IMG/VR virus record: IMGVR_UViG_3300037140_000249
Location: 1-23,336 of that record
Origin: a virus
Reading direction: 5' to 3' (one strand)
DNA: 23,336 nucleotides
Numbering within the stretch: the stretch's first letter is position 1; each line of letters starts with the position of its first letter. The notes below the pieces were generated by a model, which ran no database searches, was not told the origin of the DNA, and saw only the letters and a program-made list of their open reading frames with translations. Positions 5,530 through 21,777 of the stretch are shown piece after piece. The position numbers and the translations under genes are program-made.

Positions 5530-6078
5530 CTACCGCCGCCCGCCTGGAAACGGTTTTAATGGCTGGATCGCATTCAATGGTAATTCTACCCTGACTCTGC
5601 TCTGAAGCAAAGACAAAAATAACTGCACACGATTTGCTGAATGATTACAATAGGTTGCGATGTTTCCTGCGAATGCGCCTTCCATAATTTCTACCTCTTC
5701 ACCATACTTCATGCGCAAAAGGTCCTCAACGGCCTGCTCGATTGGAATATGCCCAGCCTGATCCCTGCGTCCAAGCAGCTCCTCTACGCATCCCCGTGAC
5801 ACAGGGGTCAACCAGTTGTCTGTCAGCCCTACCAAGCCCATGACACCACGCGTTCCATTGATGCTCTTCCAGTTACTGGTCATATCAATATCAAACAGCG
5901 TGAAGATGTACGATGGAAAGAGCGGATGCACCCGTAGGACGATCTTGTTCTCTTTTGGTGTTAGCGTTTCTCGGGTATAGGTTGGAAAGAAGATCTCAAA
6001 GCTTTGTTTCTGTAGTTCTAAAACGGCAAGCTGTTCTTGCCCTGGTTTAGTTTGGATCACGTACCAGCGTTTTTCCAT
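5530..6078 (-). CDS. NusG/RfaH-like transcription elongation or antitermination factor
   Basis: A 182-residue protein starting MEKRWYVIQTKPGQEQLAVLELQKQ, a classic NusG N-terminal (NGN) domain, with SYIFTLFDID near residue 60 and GTRGVMGLVG near 80. The C-terminal part, KYGEEVEIMEGAFAG and the following 30 residues, resembles a KOW domain. NusG-family proteins bind the RNA polymerase clamp helices; specialised members such as RfaH suppress termination in particular operons. GGAGG lies seven bases before the ATG at 6078 and only four before an ATG at 6081, so 6078 is preferred. It heads the leftward packaging/structural string, suggesting a role in late-gene readthrough (inference). Confidence 0.85.
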   Translation of the reverse strand: MEKRWYVIQTKPGQEQLAVLELQKQSFEIFFPTYTRETLTPKENKIVLRVHPLFPSYIFTLFDIDMTSNWKSINGTRGVMGLVGLTDNWLTPVSRGCVEELLGRRDQAGHIPIEQAVEDLLRMKYGEEVEIMEGAFAGNIATYCNHSANRVQLFLSLLQSRVRVELPLNAIQPLKPFPGGRR

Positions 6079-6160
6079 CATTTGCCCTCCAGCATTCTTT
6101 CGAACATACCGAAGAAAGACTCGAAAGATATAGCTCAAAAGAGCACAAAAAGGGATGGTA

Positions 6161-6196
6161 GTGAACAATATCAAGCACTTGTACTACATCGCCTAC
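6161..6196 (-). repeat. Left arm of a 36-bp imperfect inverted repeat
   Basis: The reverse complement of this stretch matches 6349-6383 at about 32 of 36 positions with one single-base gap. The outer 14 bases (TTGATATTGTTCAC read outward) are identical in both arms. The arms are 152 bases apart, too far for a simple terminator, and the spacer holds the direct repeats and the G-rich tract. Confidence 0.85.
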
Positions 6197-10985: not shown

Positions 10986-11125
10986 ATGAATATTATCAAC
11001 GGAGGCCTGACGGGAAGGTCGTGATCCTCTATGATTTCACTGACGAGCAGGACGAAGGCGACGCGTTGCCTGAGATCCCAAGCCGCCAGAACGTGGTGCC
11101 ATTCAAGAAGGAGGACAAGCGATGA
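10982..11125 (+). CDS. Very small acidic hypothetical protein
   Basis: 47 residues: MNEYYQRRPDGKVVILYDF followed by an acidic stretch (TDEQDEGDALPEI) and a basic tail (FKKEDKR). ATGA overlaps on both sides (10982-10985 and 11122-11125) fill the gap between neighbours exactly, which is the main evidence that it is a real gene despite its length. No recognised family. Confidence 0.6.
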   Translation: MNEYYQRRPDGKVVILYDFTDEQDEGDALPEIPSRQNVVPFKKEDKR

Positions 11126-11511
11126 ACCCATGGAAGATCTTAGGTGTGCACCGGAAGAGCAGTGACGCGGAGATCCGCGACGCTTATTATGGGCTGGCTA
11201 AAGAATATCACTGTGATTGGCATGGGTCTCAATGGACCGCAGAATTTATTAACGCTAATAAGGCTTATAAGGCGATCCAGACGGCGCAGGCGCGGCGGAA
11301 GTTTCTAGACAAGGTGATTGGTAAGGACTGCGGCACGTGTAAAGGAACTGGGACTATCTCAAAGGCGACGAGCTTAACAACAAAGACCCATACTGCTTGC
11401 AAAGACTGCGGCGGCGCGGGTCTGATCATAAGGGAGAAGAACGATGAGCGGACTATTGAGCTACGAGGAACTGATGGCGTTGGTGGCAAGAGGCGTCATA
11501 AAAAACACTGA
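11122..11511 (+). CDS. J-domain protein with DnaJ-type CxxCxGxG motifs and altered HPD
   Basis: 129 residues. Residues 3-60 form a J-domain (WKILGVHRKSSDAEIRDAYYGLAKEYH...NKAYKAI). Two CxxCxGxG zinc motifs follow at about 70-77 and 93-100, half the number in full DnaJ. J-domains stimulate DnaK ATPase through an invariant HPD loop; here the loop reads HCD (30-32), so canonical DnaK activation may be impaired or altered. It has no peptide-binding domain. The last ~23 residues (NDERTIELRG...) lie in the 68-base overlap with the dCTP-deaminase-like gene and look like an unselected tail. A phage could use this to recruit or sequester host DnaK (inference). Confidence 0.75.
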   Translation: MNPWKILGVHRKSSDAEIRDAYYGLAKEYHCDWHGSQWTAEFINANKAYKAIQTAQARRKFLDKVIGKDCGTCKGTGTISKATSLTTKTHTACKDCGGAGLIIREKNDERTIELRGTDGVGGKRRHKKH

Positions 11512-11959
11512 GCTGAACCAGGTGAAGGCCTGTTCCATTGAGCTAACAATGGACGCGAGCTTATCAATGGAGGTCTTTGAGATGCCAAGTGAGGAGATGG
11601 TCTGGCCGCGTCACCGGATCGACCTTGATTACCGCGATCCTATTAAGACGACGATGATCGACGCGCGGCCAAGCTTTGACCTTGAGCCAGGGTCGGCAGT
11701 GATGATCAAGACGCGGGAGTACTTCAACCTTCCGAACGACATCAGCATGCAGCTTGTCAGTACGCTGCCGATGGCACGCGCCTGTCTTGGGCTCAGCGGC
11801 TGTACCTTCAGGGCCGCGGGGTTCGGGGATCAGAGCCTGCCGCTGACGCTTGTCAACCTAACACAAAACCACCTCATCACCTTAAGACCTGGCAACGTCA
11901 TCGCGCAGGCGCTTCTGTTCCACCACCGCGCTGTTCCAATGGAGATCTGTCATGTCTGA
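11444..11959 (+). CDS. dCTP deaminase/dUTPase-fold protein with degenerate active site
   Basis: 171 residues with the Dcd layout: VKACSIELTMDA near 28 (Dcd: NGATVDVRLGN), FDLEPGSAVMIKTREYFNLP near 78, then MARACLGLSGCTFRAAGFG and LPLTLVNLTQNHLITLRPGNVIAQALLF. Bacterial Dcd deaminates dCTP to dUTP. The catalytic Glu expected in the LExxN segment is Thr here (LTLVNL), and the RSSLARLGL motif is disturbed, so activity is doubtful. It may be a divergent enzyme or a structural/regulatory derivative. GGGAG precedes the ATG. In context it would act on the deoxycytidine nucleotide pool, consistent with the modification block at 19149-21777. Confidence 0.72.
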   Translation: MSGLLSYEELMALVARGVIKNTELNQVKACSIELTMDASLSMEVFEMPSEEMVWPRHRIDLDYRDPIKTTMIDARPSFDLEPGSAVMIKTREYFNLPNDISMQLVSTLPMARACLGLSGCTFRAAGFGDQSLPLTLVNLTQNHLITLRPGNVIAQALLFHHRAVPMEICHV

Positions 11960-14115: not shown

Positions 14116-14160
14116 CGTGGGTCGTGGAACCGCCGCTATAACGGTGATCCACGACCCATG
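14116..14160 (+). other. Strong branched hairpin just before the polymerase ribosome site
   Basis: A 13-bp stem (14116-14128 with 14148-14160, one G-U pair; core TGGGTCGTGGA with TCCACGACCCA) encloses a second short stem ACCG/CGGT. No T-run follows, so it is not a normal terminator. The polymerase Shine-Dalgarno (GAGGAGG, 14169-14175) begins eight bases after it. Likely a translational control element, RNase III site or mRNA stabiliser (inference). Confidence 0.75.
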
Positions 14161-14181
14161 CCTTTGTCTGAGGAGGACAAA

Positions 14182-16044
14182 ATGAAACTACCAAATGTGA
14201 CCACGCTCGACTTTGAAACCAAGGGAATAGAATCACGCCCAGCATACCCACCAGAACCGGTCGGGATGTCGATCAAGCAGCGCGTGGGTAAGCCGCGCTA
14301 TTACGCCTGGGGACATCCAAATAAGAACAACTGCACGAAGGCCGAGGCTATAAAGGTGCTGCAGAAGGTGTGGCGTGAGAGCTATGCCATCCTCTGTCAC
14401 CACGCGAAGTTCGACGTCGACGTTGCACAAACACACATGGAATGCGGCGAAATTAAATGGGACAGGATCCATGACACCCAATATCTTTTATTCCTTGACG
14501 ACCCACACGCTGCCTCTCTTGCCCTGAAACCATCGGCCGAGCGTCTGCTTGGCATGAAGCCAGAGGACAGGGACGCGGTGAAAGAATGGGTCCTTGCTAA
14601 CGTGTCAGAGGCCAAGCCAAGCACGTGGGGTGCGTATATCTGGATGGCGCCTGGAGATCTCGTCGGGAAGTACGCGAACAAAGACACTACCATGACCGAG
14701 GCGCTTTTTAAGCATCTTTATCCACAGGTCGTGGCGAATGGCATGCTTAAGGCATACGACCGCGAACGTGAGCTGATGCCAATCTTCCTTGAGAATGAGC
14801 GCCGCGGTTTGAAGATCGATATGAAGGCACTTGCGGTCGATATCCCAGCGTATCAAGCGGAGTTAGCGAAGGTCGAGGTTTGGCTCAAGAAGCGTCTTAA
14901 GGCTCCAGAGCTGAACCTCGATAGTGATGCCGAACTCGCCGATGCGCTCGACGCTACGGGGATCGTCACTGATTGGGCCATGACGAAGACTGGGAAGCGC
15001 TCGACCTCAAAGGTCAATATGACAGCTGATAAGTTCAACGACCGGAAGTTCTTTCTAGTCCTTGGCTACCGTAACCGTTTAACAACATGCCTGCGGACAT
15101 TCTTAGAGCAGTGGTATGAGAAAGGACTGGCTAACAATGGATACATCCAACCCACGTGGAATCAAGTTCGACAGCCAACGGGAGGTGATGGAAGCAAAGG
15201 GACTAGGACTGGTCGACCTTCTTGTGATAACCCAAATCTGCTTAACATCGCCAAGTCTTTCGAAGATCGAGGGGACGATTACTCCCACCCTACCTTCATT
15301 AAAGGGCTTAAGCCTCTCCCTCTCATCAGAAGATATACTCTGCCAGATCCTGGGTGTACCTGGTTGCACCGCGATTACAACCAGCAGGAGCTACGTATTC
15401 TCGGACATTTTGAAGATGGTGCCATTTTGGAAGCGTATAAGCTTGATCCTAAGATGGACATTCATACCTTCGTTCAAGATGAAGTTCGACGAATCACTCG
15501 CATGGAAGCTGACCGCTCGTCCATTAAGGGGCTCAACTTCGGCCGAGTGTATGGACAAGGATTGGGATCCCTGGCGCTTAAGTTGCGCAGACCAGTAGAA
15601 GAAGTTAAGGCTATCCGTGACGCACAGAACAAGGCGCTTCCTGGCTTGAATGAGCTGGAGAAGGAGATCAAGCGGATGGGGATCGCTAACGAGCCGATCA
15701 TCACCTGGGGAGGCAGGATCTACTACTGCGAGCCCGCGAAGTATGTGGAAAAATTTAAGCGGGAGATGACATTTGAATATAAACTGCTCAACTATCTCAT
15801 TCAGGGTTCGGCCGCCGATGCAACAAAGGAGGCCATCATACGTTATCACAATCACCCGGGTCGAAAGGGACGGTTGTTGGTCACAGTATACGATGAAATC
15901 AATGTCTGTGTCGCGAACAAAAATGCGAAAAGCGAGATGAAGGTCTTGCAGGAATGCATGGAAGGCTTAGAGTTTGACGTGCCGCTGCTCACGGACGGAA
16001 AAGCAGGTAACAACTGGGGCAACTTAGAAAAGGTGAAATGGTAA
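14182..16044 (+). CDS. Family A DNA polymerase with 3'-5' exonuclease
   Basis: 620 residues. The exonuclease domain shows DFETKG (10-15), HHAKFDVDVAQTH near 75-87 and YANKDTTMTE near 170, the three DEDD-type motifs. The polymerase domain shows motif A WLHRDYNQQELRIL (394-407), motif B RSSIKGLNFGRVYG (445-458) and motif C VYDE (569-572; VHDE in most relatives). The O-helix residue equivalent to E. coli Phe762 is Phe (453), not the Tyr of T7 or the Leu of some temperate phages. There is no 5' nuclease domain, as in T7-type enzymes. The ATG at 14182 has GAGGAGG six bases upstream; the ATG at 14158 lies inside the hairpin. The stop overlaps the next start (TAATG). About 15080-15600 is more AT-rich than the rest. 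Confidence 0.95.
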   Translation: MKLPNVTTLDFETKGIESRPAYPPEPVGMSIKQRVGKPRYYAWGHPNKNNCTKAEAIKVLQKVWRESYAILCHHAKFDVDVAQTHMECGEIKWDRIHDTQYLLFLDDPHAASLALKPSAERLLGMKPEDRDAVKEWVLANVSEAKPSTWGAYIWMAPGDLVGKYANKDTTMTEALFKHLYPQVVANGMLKAYDRERELMPIFLENERRGLKIDMKALAVDIPAYQAELAKVEVWLKKRLKAPELNLDSDAELADALDATGIVTDWAMTKTGKRSTSKVNMTADKFNDRKFFLVLGYRNRLTTCLRTFLEQWYEKGLANNGYIQPTWNQVRQPTGGDGSKGTRTGRPSCDNPNLLNIAKSFEDRGDDYSHPTFIKGLKPLPLIRRYTLPDPGCTWLHRDYNQQELRILGHFEDGAILEAYKLDPKMDIHTFVQDEVRRITRMEADRSSIKGLNFGRVYGQGLGSLALKLRRPVEEVKAIRDAQNKALPGLNELEKEIKRMGIANEPIITWGGRIYYCEPAKYVEKFKREMTFEYKLLNYLIQGSAADATKEAIIRYHNHPGRKGRLLVTVYDEINVCVANKNAKSEMKVLQECMEGLEFDVPLLTDGKAGNNWGNLEKVKW

Positions 16045-19148: not shown

Positions 19149-19538
19149 ATGACAAATAAATTCCTCAGCGACATCGCTGAGTTCCAAACCTCAATCCTTA
19201 ATAACCAATTCCCATCAAAGCCAACCTTTGACCAAGAGAAGGCGATGCACCTGACGCTCTGCGCGCAAGAGGAACTCGATGAGCTGACCCTCGCGGTCGA
19301 GCAAGGCGACTTCCCTGAGACCGTGGACGCCATTATCGATTGTATCTACTTCCTGCTCGGTGGTCTCCACCAGCTGGGAGTTCCCGCTGAGCGGGCATGG
19401 GACGCAGTGCATCACGCCAATATGACGAAACTGCGAGGCGTGACGAAGCGTGGTGTTGAGGGCGACGCCGCGAAACCGTCAGGCTGGAAGCCGCCGGATC
19501 ATTCATGGGTGAATGGAGAGAAAACAGATGCAGCCTAA
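19149..19538 (+). CDS. MazG-like nucleotide pyrophosphohydrolase (candidate dCTPase)
   Basis: 129 residues of the all-alpha NTP pyrophosphatase superfamily. The metal motif EELDE (41-45) is followed by ETVDAIID (57-64), the EExxE...ExxD pattern, then YFLLGGLHQLGV and HHANMTKLRG, the Asn-Met-x-Lys element near the C-terminus of MazG/HisE-type enzymes. These hydrolyse NTPs to NMP and PPi. T4 gp56, a dCTPase/dUTPase of the same superfamily, removes dCTP in hydroxymethylcytosine phages. The same role is inferred here from the neighbouring dCMP-modifying synthase; the true substrate cannot be read from sequence. CCAGGAG precedes the ATG. It overlaps the next gene by 11 bases. Confidence 0.85.
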   Translation: MTNKFLSDIAEFQTSILNNQFPSKPTFDQEKAMHLTLCAQEELDELTLAVEQGDFPETVDAIIDCIYFLLGGLHQLGVPAERAWDAVHHANMTKLRGVTKRGVEGDAAKPSGWKPPDHSWVNGEKTDAA

Positions 19539-20535
19539 AGGGATCATTGTTTTCGAAGGCGCGGATTGTGCTGGGAAGACGACACTAGCACACGAGATCG
19601 GAAAGCGTCACAAGAGCGACTACTTTCACATGGGGAAAACAGACGATCCTTTTCAGCTTTGTCTTGATACATTCCAGTACGCGATCGCAGCCTCAGAACG
19701 TGGGCTCGCGCTTGTTGACAGGTCGTGGATCAGTGAAATCGCCTATGGTCTCACCTACCGCAACGAGACACGGCTGAAGGCCTCAGCGCGGTGTCTTGAT
19801 CGTCTGCTGCTGAAACACGCGGCGCTGAATGTCATGTGTGTCCCACACGATGTGGAGCGGCAGATCGTCCTCCATGCCAAGATGAAGCAGGAACGGGATG
19901 AGATGTATGACAACATCGCGGACGTGGCGCTGTGGTACAAGCGCCTGATGGACAACGAGCTGAAGATCTCAGGTCTGAAAGACTTCGCTAATCGGGCAGA
20001 CGTAATCCGCTATGACATGTTCCGGTGTGATCCAAAGAACTTTGGGAATACCATTAATGTTGTCCTGTCACAACTTGAAAGCCTGCGCGCAAGGCAACTT
20101 AGCACAGCGCTAGACCCAGCAGTGCACAATTTTCAAGGTCACGTCGTTGATGTAGAACTTGTTTTTGTGGGTGACGATCTCTCTCCGAAGACGGAATGGC
20201 CTTGGCCATGGTTCTGGCACCATGAGACGAATGGAAGCGCGCAGCTGCTCAATAATATTCTGCACGACCTTGACCTTGACGAGTCGCGCGCTGTTTATCT
20301 CAATGCAAACCAGATACCTGATATGCTTAACCCGCTGTTGGAGAACCTAAGATCGCGGAGGAAAGAGATCAAATTTATCGCGCTAGGCGGCAAAGCAGCA
20401 AAAGCGCTTAAAGAGTCAACTGTTGAAGAGCGCCATGAGCTCATCTTGCTTAGGCACCCTCAATTCGTCAAGCGCTTCCACTTCCACGACATAGAAACAT
20501 ATAGACAGGAGATAAAAGATGCAATTACCTATTGA
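19528..20535 (+). CDS. dNMP kinase-like protein fused to a uracil-DNA-glycosylase-fold domain
   Basis: 335 residues from the ATG at 19528 (GGAGAG eight bases upstream). Residues 1-~185 resemble thymidylate kinase: P-loop GADCAGKTTL (11-20), VDRSWISEIAYG (63-74) and a helical segment with LWYKRLMD. Residues ~207-330 resemble the UDG superfamily: VELVFVGDD (209-217), NGSAQLLNNIL (235-245), KFIALGGKAAKAL (282-294) and RHPQ (309-312), corresponding to the family's N-terminal GE.PG-type loop, the helix after it, the LG..A..AL strand-helix, and the HP motif. The usual catalytic residues of the N-terminal loop are not clear. The kinase half could phosphorylate hydroxymethyl-dCMP or dTMP; the second half may bind or excise a base (inference). 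Confidence 0.8.
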   Translation: MQPKGIIVFEGADCAGKTTLAHEIGKRHKSDYFHMGKTDDPFQLCLDTFQYAIAASERGLALVDRSWISEIAYGLTYRNETRLKASARCLDRLLLKHAALNVMCVPHDVERQIVLHAKMKQERDEMYDNIADVALWYKRLMDNELKISGLKDFANRADVIRYDMFRCDPKNFGNTINVVLSQLESLRARQLSTALDPAVHNFQGHVVDVELVFVGDDLSPKTEWPWPWFWHHETNGSAQLLNNILHDLDLDESRAVYLNANQIPDMLNPLLENLRSRRKEIKFIALGGKAAKALKESTVEERHELILLRHPQFVKRFHFHDIETYRQEIKDAITY

Positions 20536-21337
20536 ATACGCGACAAGCAACGTGTGGCGGAAACTGCTAGCTGACATCATCTACACGGGAAGCTACGCTG
20601 CGCCGCGTGAACTACAGACGCGTGAGATTCTCGGGTGCCAGACACGCGTCCCGATGTCTTATCCTGTCATGGGAGTCCAGGAGCGGAAGCTTGGCTACAA
20701 ATTCATGGCTGCCGAGGCTGCGTGGATCATGTCAGGCGACAACCGCGTCGCGACGATCTCGCCCTACAGCAAGCAGATCAGCAGATTTTCTGATGACGGG
20801 ACCTTCTTCTTCGGCGCCTACGGCCCAAAGATCCGCGACCAGTTGCCCTATGTGATCTCAAAGCTGAAGGTTGATATCAAGACGCGCCATGCCTTAATAA
20901 ACATCTGGCGAGAGCAACCAAGGGCAACAAAGGATGTGCCGTGCACAGTGTCGCTGCAGTGGGTCATCAGGAACAACAAGCTGCACTGCATAGACACGAT
21001 GCGCTCGTCTGATGTCTGGTTGGGTTGGCCGTATGATGTCTTCAACATGTCAATGATCTCACTTTATCTGTTGGTTGAGCTTCGCACACAGGCCTATGAT
21101 CAGTTTAAGCACATCGAACTTGGTGATCTGATCTTGACGGCAGCGTCTCAACACCTCTACGAGCCACAGTTCATCGCTGCCGATGAGATCTCAAAGCTTG
21201 AGCTACAGAATATCGTGGCGTCACGTCACTTCGCGCCTGATATGTATGGGACAGGCGAACAGCTGATTGACACACTCTGGGCCATCGCGCGCGCAGATCC
21301 ACCTATAGTCAAAGACTTCTTACTGGAGGCAGCATGA
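20519..21337 (+). CDS. Thymidylate-synthase homologue, predicted dCMP hydroxymethylase (or dCMP methylase)
   Basis: 272 residues. The synthase framework is intact: EAAWIMSGDN with the catalytic Glu (66), FFGAYGPKIRDQL (97-109), PC at 141-142 (catalytic Cys142), RSSDVWLGWP (162-171) and HLY (212-214). Thymidylate synthases have PCH and LG.PFN, where the Asn (E. coli 177) selects dUMP. Here these read PCT and GWPYD, with Asp173 in the Asn position. T4 gp42, dCMP hydroxymethylase, has the same Cys-Thr and Asp, and Asn-to-Asp at this site is known to switch thymidylate synthase toward dCMP. The enzyme is therefore predicted to add a one-carbon unit to dCMP. It overlaps the kinase gene by 17 bases and the deaminase by four. 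Confidence 0.85.
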   Translation: MQLPIEYATSNVWRKLLADIIYTGSYAAPRELQTREILGCQTRVPMSYPVMGVQERKLGYKFMAAEAAWIMSGDNRVATISPYSKQISRFSDDGTFFFGAYGPKIRDQLPYVISKLKVDIKTRHALINIWREQPRATKDVPCTVSLQWVIRNNKLHCIDTMRSSDVWLGWPYDVFNMSMISLYLLVELRTQAYDQFKHIELGDLILTAASQHLYEPQFIAADEISKLELQNIVASRHFAPDMYGTGEQLIDTLWAIARADPPIVKDFLLEAA

Positions 21338-21777
21338 GACCAGAGCGCGCTGAGGTCTTCTTAAATATGGCAGCAGAGCTGGCGACACTAGCGACCTGCC
21401 CACGCCGGCAGGTTGGCTGCATCTTCACTGATGAATACAACAGGATCATCAGCAGCGGCTACAACGGTGTTCCGTCAGGTATGCCACACTGCACAACACA
21501 GCCATGCGAAGGCGCGAAGCTGGCGTCGGGGACGGGCCTTGATTCTTGTCTCGCGATCCACGCTGAGATCAACGCCATGGCGCTCTGCAGTGATGTCAAG
21601 AAGGTAAAGACGATCTATCTTACCTGCTCACCGTGTGTGGCTTGTGTGAAGGCGCTCTTAACAACAAGCGCGACCAAGCTCTATTTTACGGAGAAGTATG
21701 CTGATACAGTGGCCCTTGATATGTGGACAGGCACGGGCCGTGAATGGGTACAGATACAAAAAAGCCTAGCCCCGTAA
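21334..21777 (+). CDS. Zinc-dependent dCMP deaminase
   Basis: 147 residues of the cytidine/deoxycytidylate deaminase superfamily. HAEINA at 76-81 supplies the zinc His and the catalytic Glu78; CSPC at 98-101 supplies the two zinc Cys. The earlier VGCIFTDEYNRIISSGYNGVPSG and the Cys/His insert (PHCTTQPCEG) are typical of dCMP deaminases. It converts dCMP to dUMP for thymidylate synthesis. With the dCMP-modifying synthase next door it competes for the same substrate, balancing dTMP supply against modified cytosine. The ATG overlaps the synthase stop (ATGA). A bidirectional terminator begins inside its 3' end. Confidence 0.93.
   Translation: MRPERAEVFLNMAAELATLATCPRRQVGCIFTDEYNRIISSGYNGVPSGMPHCTTQPCEGAKLASGTGLDSCLAIHAEINAMALCSDVKKVKTIYLTCSPCVACVKALLTTSATKLYFTEKYADTVALDMWTGTGREWVQIQKSLAP

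Follow-up and report, generated by a model that had tools for sequence, protein, structure and literature searches.

Which base does a phage make with a compact set of nucleotide-metabolizing genes that includes an apparent thymidylate synthase (TS)? The question is raised by IMG/VR virus record IMGVR_UViG_3300037140_000249, probably a fragment, whose 23,336 bases are referred to here as the window. Positions 19149-21777 hold four open reading frames (ORFs), all on the + strand and arranged head-to-tail with overlaps of 26, 17 and 4 bases. Profile searches place their products in the families that an initial annotation had assigned to four overlapping genes: a MazG-like pyrophosphatase, a deoxynucleoside monophosphate (dNMP) kinase fused to a uracil-DNA glycosylase (UDG) fold, a TS homologue and a deoxycytidine monophosphate (dCMP) deaminase. 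It is very probable that this operon makes 5-hydroxymethyl-dCMP (hm-dCMP), which is fed into phage DNA and replaces deoxycytidine (dC) there. Replacement of cytosine by 5-hydroxymethylcytosine (5hmC) is a known phage protection from host restriction enzymes.

Active site of the thymidylate synthase homologue

The TS-superfamily protein, a predicted dCMP 5-hydroxymethylase (20519..21337, + strand; PF00303, 7.3e-19), was aligned with homologues from 70 relatives, comprising 64 IMG/VR loci found by pattern scan and 6 GenBank phages found by tblastn. The GenBank relatives, at 46-51% identity, include Pelagibacter phages HTVC119P and HTVC200P, Stenotrophomonas phage AXL3, Pseudoxanthomonas phage PW916 and metagenomic phages whose gene is annotated 'pyrimidine hmase'. 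Across the 71 sequences E66, Y101, D139, C142 and D173 are invariant. The initial annotation had noted dCMP-type active-site residues, and these are present in the window enzyme as Asp173, at the position of E. coli TS (EcTS) Asn177, and Asp139, three residues before the catalytic Cys142. The Cys is accompanied throughout by the counterparts of T4 Glu60 (E66) and Tyr96 (Y101) that are expected of a dCMP hydroxymethylase, for which Asp or Glu is expected at -3.

We compared these two positions (-3 of the Cys and EcTS 177) with those of four reference enzymes, with sequences taken from their own records. E. coli ThyA has Leu/Asn, the deoxyuridine monophosphate (dUMP) hydroxymethylase SPO1 gp29 has Asp/Asn, the dCMP hydroxymethylase T4 gp42 has Asp/Asp, and the TS homologue from Bosavirus DoCa6, which belongs to the same genus as the 5-methylcytosine (5mC) phage Xp12, has Asn/Asp. 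The window and all 70 relatives share Asp/Asp. In T4 gp42 the first Asp (Asp145) serves to activate the water molecule from which the hydroxyl derives, and the D145N and D179N variants give no or negligible product (PMC6400193).

The nearest solved family points the same way. The CMP hydroxymethylase MilA (5b6d, 5jnh) is the best solved profile match, with 123 bits versus 89 for the best TS, and also the best fold match of the predicted structure (predicted local distance difference test (pLDDT) score 92.7), although by a small gap (Z 26.0 versus 24.3). The CMP-type residues of MilA, Lys133 and Ala176, are replaced by Arg123 and Ser163 in all 71 sequences, and the exchange K133R/A176S switches MilA from CMP to dCMP (quoted in PMC6400193). 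Because Arg123 and Ser163 match this switch and the Asp/Asp pattern accompanies them, the expected substrate is dCMP and the expected product hm-dCMP; on sequence grounds the window enzyme is thus predicted to act as a dCMP 5-hydroxymethylase.

An ordinary supply of deoxythymidine monophosphate (dTMP), running from dCMP through dUMP and dTMP to the diphosphate dTDP, was proposed by the AXL3 authors for the AXL3 copy, and on paper it agrees with the gene names TS, thymidylate kinase and dCMP deaminase (PMC7504290). The two Asp residues in all 71 sequences speak against such a role, which we consider highly improbable. The window protein scores at most 50 bits against the NCBIfam TS models, far below their cut-offs of 108-405, and with Asp173 in place of Asn177 and the equivalog cut-off missed it does not classify as a ThyA. 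In addition, a separate dTMP synthase is encoded in 6 of the 49 relative records, each of which also carries the cassette: a canonical ThyA (Asn177, Leu at -3, PFN motif and TS-type C terminus) in L016 and L045, and a ThyX in AXL3, PW916, L026 and L069. It is all but certain that the TS homologue is something other than a thymidylate synthase.

A second alternative is that the enzyme carries out a reductive methylation, so that the operon makes 5-methyl-dCMP as in Xp12 and the DNA contains 5mC. The Bosavirus TS homologue has the equivalent of D173, EcTS N177D yields 5-methyl-dCMP (cited in PMC8670742), and related Xp12-like phages show a similar restriction resistance (PMC9206674). However, at -3 the window enzyme has the Asp of both known hydroxymethylases instead of the Asn of the Bosavirus enzyme; the nearest solved family is the hydroxymethylase MilA; alignment with the references shows that the TS-type C-terminal tail is absent from the window protein; and the carbamoyltransferase that adjoins the cassette in two relatives (below) requires a hydroxyl acceptor. 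We therefore regard 5mC as very unlikely. The initial annotation had left hydroxymethyl and methyl products side by side; its proposal of cytosine modification holds, and the Asp at -3 and the two carbamoyltransferases sharpen it to hydroxymethyl.

The kinase–UDG-fold fusion and the proposed route

The second ORF (19513-20535, + strand; 340 residues) matches AAA_28 (4e-5) and phrog_761 thymidylate kinase (1e-12). An AlphaFold model built from 50 sequences (pLDDT 91.5, predicted template modelling score 0.91) confirms the predicted fusion, with two domains that each match solved folds. Residues 8-191 resemble human deoxycytidine kinase and bacterial thymidylate kinases (Z 13-14), and residues 192-340 resemble family 4 UDG (Z 13.8) and UdgX (13.5), the matches ranging over Z 13.0-13.8 with about 141 residues at 2.9 Å.

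The N-terminal domain (19513..20112, + strand) is assigned from its motifs and model fold as a thymidylate/deoxycytidylate-type dNMP kinase. Its P-loop (G16-D18-G21-K22-T24) and DRxWxSE motif (D69-R70-W72-E75) are invariant and lie in a thymidylate kinase/deoxycytidine kinase fold. It scores 22.5 bits against the dTMP kinase equivalog TIGR00041, below the cut-off of 83.25, and for this reason we do not claim a host-type dTMP kinase.

The C-terminal domain (20113..20535, + strand) is assigned as a family 4 UDG/UdgX-like fold from the model. A UDG-domain profile matches it weakly in the window alone (0.095) and more strongly in the relatives (1.9e-5); the domain's own profile ranks UdgX first among solved proteins, a match that is weak on its own (E 0.03). 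Like family 4 UDG and UdgX it keeps the pocket Asn (Asn264) and His-Pro (His315-Pro316). Unlike them, it is fused to a nucleotide kinase and has a G[DE]xxNPK-like sequence in place of the catalytic GExPG, which is degenerate and has lost its Pro-Gly (GDDLSPK in the window, consensus GEQVNPK). Because this motif is missing, we do not classify the domain as an active glycosylase. Our guess is that it may sense or remove uracil or 5-hydroxymethyluracil, the products of deamination.

A viral-contig search with the fusion protein alone found nothing, its seeds being too specific, and the search with the TS homologue succeeded. In bacterial genomes we found 26 loci related to the fusion, in all of which the matches cover the kinase part and in none the UDG-like domain, and a literature search for kinase–UDG fusions in phages returned nothing relevant. 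Two metagenome-assembled genome (MAG) contigs deserve mention. One of the 26 loci (L099), on the Gallionella MAG contig JAQTYN010000017.1, combines the kinase with the rest of the cassette, including a TS homologue of the Asp type, and with PolA; the contig probably stems from a phage and was sorted into the Gallionella bin. The 219 kb MAG contig JAESPQ010000022.1 has a kinase/TS-type match four times at a spacing of ~65 kb (L080-L083) and resembles a phage genome concatenated during assembly. In Manatee Spring phage ct3Et533 (L004:14835-15323) the cassette kinase is unfused, and a separate gene elsewhere is annotated as a G:T/U DNA glycosylase.

The first ORF (19149..19538, + strand; PF01503, 8.5e-12) encodes a MazG/PRA-PH-like nucleoside triphosphate pyrophosphatase whose EExxE/DxxxD metal-binding motif (E41, E42, E45, D60 and D64) is invariant in 67 relatives. 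The last ORF (21334..21777, + strand; PF00383, 6.5e-18) encodes a deaminase with zinc motifs HAE (76-78) and PC-x2-C (100-104), which 64-65 of 66 sequences retain, and T4 dCMP deaminase is among its solved matches.

We infer the reactions, their order and the modified base from this gene content and order, the conserved active-site residues and the folds. The MazG-like enzyme would convert deoxycytidine triphosphate (dCTP), and possibly deoxyuridine triphosphate (dUTP) too, to the monophosphate. The TS homologue would then place a hydroxymethyl group on C5 of dCMP with methylene-tetrahydrofolate as donor, the kinase domain would raise hm-dCMP to the diphosphate, and the host nucleoside diphosphate kinase would complete hm-dCTP. 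The phage polymerase, which is PolA-type rather than T4-type as the initial annotation had recognized (14158..16044, + strand; PF00476, 5.2e-45), would insert hm-dCTP into the DNA. The deaminase is predicted to turn surplus dCMP into dUMP for thymidine synthesis and hence for the supply of deoxythymidine triphosphate.

Several points weigh against this reading. The nearest solved MazG is the MazG-like protein DR2231, which we take to be a dUTPase, so the predicted substrate of the window enzyme may be dCTP, dUTP or both. The conservation of D173 is partly selected within the IMG/VR set, because the query peptides included the motif WPYDVFNM that contains it; this applies neither to D139 nor to the six GenBank phages. 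As the 5mC control, the Bosavirus enzyme comes from a congener of Xp12 rather than from Xp12 itself. All 71 sequences have Gly99 in place of T4 Ser94, where the T4 signature calls for Ser or Thr ahead of the Tyr by two residues. Not every hydroxymethylase conforms to this, since the known enzyme SPO1 gp29 has Ala there, but owing to Gly99 we describe the TS homologue as working like gp42 and do not assign it to the gp42 family. Finally, the data are compatible with either full or partial replacement of dC.

Conservation of the cassette and the gene in front of it

The complete four-gene set is present, as judged by profiles, in 57 of the 62 loci with full flanks (window included), which argues against a chance grouping. 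The UDG domain is fused to the kinase in 54 of these 62, and in most relatives a homologue of the polymerase follows immediately 3′ of the cassette.

The position directly before MazG is variable. In 58 of the 70 relatives it holds a class I methyltransferase of ~284 residues (for example L036:5314-6270, L005:5644-6468 and AXL3 gp31) that belongs to Methyltransf_23 and whose nearest NCBIfam models, the UbiG and Hen1 O-methyltransferases, are matched far under their cut-offs; it is a candidate for O-methylation of 5hmC. Two relatives, whose kinases are without the UDG domain, instead carry a NodU/TobZ-type carbamoyltransferase (PF16861/PF02543; L017:5253-7046 and L060:5410-7095). One such carbamoyltransferase, encoded on a modified phage contig, acts on 5hmC and 5hm-dCTP in vitro (PMC8670742), and the presence of this family in the slot therefore supports the hydroxymethyl core. 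Three further relatives have a pyridoxal phosphate (PLP)-dependent enzyme there (phrog_7093, 'threonine dehydratase'; L067:6069-6995, L068:5694-6662 and L069:6119-7024), possibly for an amino-acid-derived hypermodification of 5hmC. The slot is cut off by the end of the locus in 5 of the 70, and no gene occupies it in the window, HTVC119P and ctIqW946.

Since no tailoring gene adjoins the cassette in this record, bare 5hmC is the simplest product for the window phage, although the record is probably incomplete. That hm-dCMP is an intermediate, and that an enzyme encoded outside the record methylates, carbamoylates, aminates or glycosylates 5hmC, is an extension to which we give somewhat less than even chances. 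A slot gene stands directly before MazG in nearly all relatives (58 methyltransferase, 2 carbamoyltransferase and 3 PLP genes); in the window none adjoins the cassette and none is recognized elsewhere. Searches of the window likewise turned up no known glucosyltransferase or carbamoyltransferase family, in agreement with the initial annotation regarding glucosyltransferases, although the two T4 glucosyltransferase searches were weak and matched no control genome either.

More speculatively, and with considerable doubt, these loci could represent a widespread family of PolA phages with a portable 5hmC operon and an exchangeable tailoring slot. The commonest version would yield an undescribed base such as 5-methoxymethylcytosine, the UdgX-like domain would bind or remove uracil or hydroxymethyluracil and so proofread the pathway, and the window would represent the variant in which no tailoring gene adjoins the operon. 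A literature search for methoxymethylcytosine in phages returned nothing relevant.

Elsewhere the window encodes a P22-like portal, terminase, a DUF3854/DUF5906 primase, a PD-(D/E)XK exonuclease, an SNF2-type helicase and an endolysin. A search for close relatives based on the portal recovered only L076, a 6.4 kb fragment with 68% identity, and more distant relatives that lack the cassette in the stretches examined. A dCTP deaminase/dUTPase-fold protein (11444-11959, + strand; PF22769, 1.8e-12) looked like a dCTP deaminase, which would have lent the pathway further support. We do not count it because its similarity is weak (TIGR02274, 32 bits versus a cut-off of 92.8) and Val occupies the position expected for the catalytic Glu. 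Dihydrofolate reductase (PF00186), considered as a marker to separate methylation from hydroxymethylation, was matched in none of 49 records; since it was not matched in the Bosavirus record either, whose group is reported to carry the enzyme, this absence carries no weight. The window also encodes a NusG-domain protein (5530-6174, - strand; PF02357, 3e-18; phrog transcription antiterminator), possibly a phage antiterminator, and a small protein in which a DnaJ domain precedes a partial zinc-binding DnaJ central domain (11122-11511, + strand).

Comparison with known systems

The 5hmC pathway of T4 (gp56 dCTPase, gp42, gp1 dNMP kinase and cd dCMP deaminase) comprises the same four biochemical roles, and gp42 shares its two specificity residues, D/D, with the window enzyme. 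Nevertheless gp42 is a distant relative, the T4 genes are scattered (42 and 56 lie ~9 kb apart) rather than gathered in a compact operon, T4 has glucosyltransferases, the window polymerase is not T4-type, and the window kinase bears a UdgX-like domain. The T4-like route of the initial annotation is supported as a cytosine-modification pathway; its starting substrate may be dCTP, dUTP or both, and the T4 route does not explain the UDG-like domain. The T4 strategy would also be in use, in the compact form of a four-gene operon, among non-T4 phages whose polymerase is PolA-type.

MilA, the nearest solved protein in sequence and fold, likewise carries Asp at both diagnostic positions (-3 and 177), but prefers CMP and makes a mildiomycin precursor, whereas the window enzyme has the dCMP-type Arg123 and Ser163. 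The enzyme of the Xp12 congener DoCa6 differs from it by Asn at -3.

The MetaGPA study found a TS with Asp177, PRA-PH and dCMP deaminase on contigs with APOBEC-resistant cytosine (PMC8670742). These contigs, where a carbamoyltransferase also occurs, share the core domains and Asp177 with the window, and two window relatives have a carbamoyltransferase in the operon; the window itself has none, and the main text of that study names neither a kinase nor a kinase–UDG fusion. As this combination, with the N177D-type TS, was already described on modified-cytosine phage contigs, the locus is to that extent less novel.

Stenotrophomonas phage AXL3 resembles the window in the gene order of gp27-gp31 and in a long kinase protein with a C-terminal domain; it differs in a TS homologue of 48% identity, the class I methyltransferase gp31 and the ThyX gp50. 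Of the enzymes tested on its DNA, all 35 whose sites include G/C failed to cut and only TasI and Tru1I, which have A/T-only sites, succeeded; the authors assigned the genes to dTMP synthesis and left the modification unexplained (PMC7504290). This resistance is consistent with a modified cytosine, and our reading predicts that AXL3 DNA carries 5hmC or a derivative, a testable answer for a cultured phage. It would also correct the annotation 'thymidylate synthase' in many phages, including HTVC119P, AXL3 and the metagenomic relatives. The slot before the operon marks varied candidate tailoring enzymes, of which the carbamoyltransferase family has proven activity on 5hmC. The kind of pathway is known from T4 and the MetaGPA contigs; the compact operon, the kinase–UdgX fusion, here brought to notice, and the exchangeable neighbouring gene are new.

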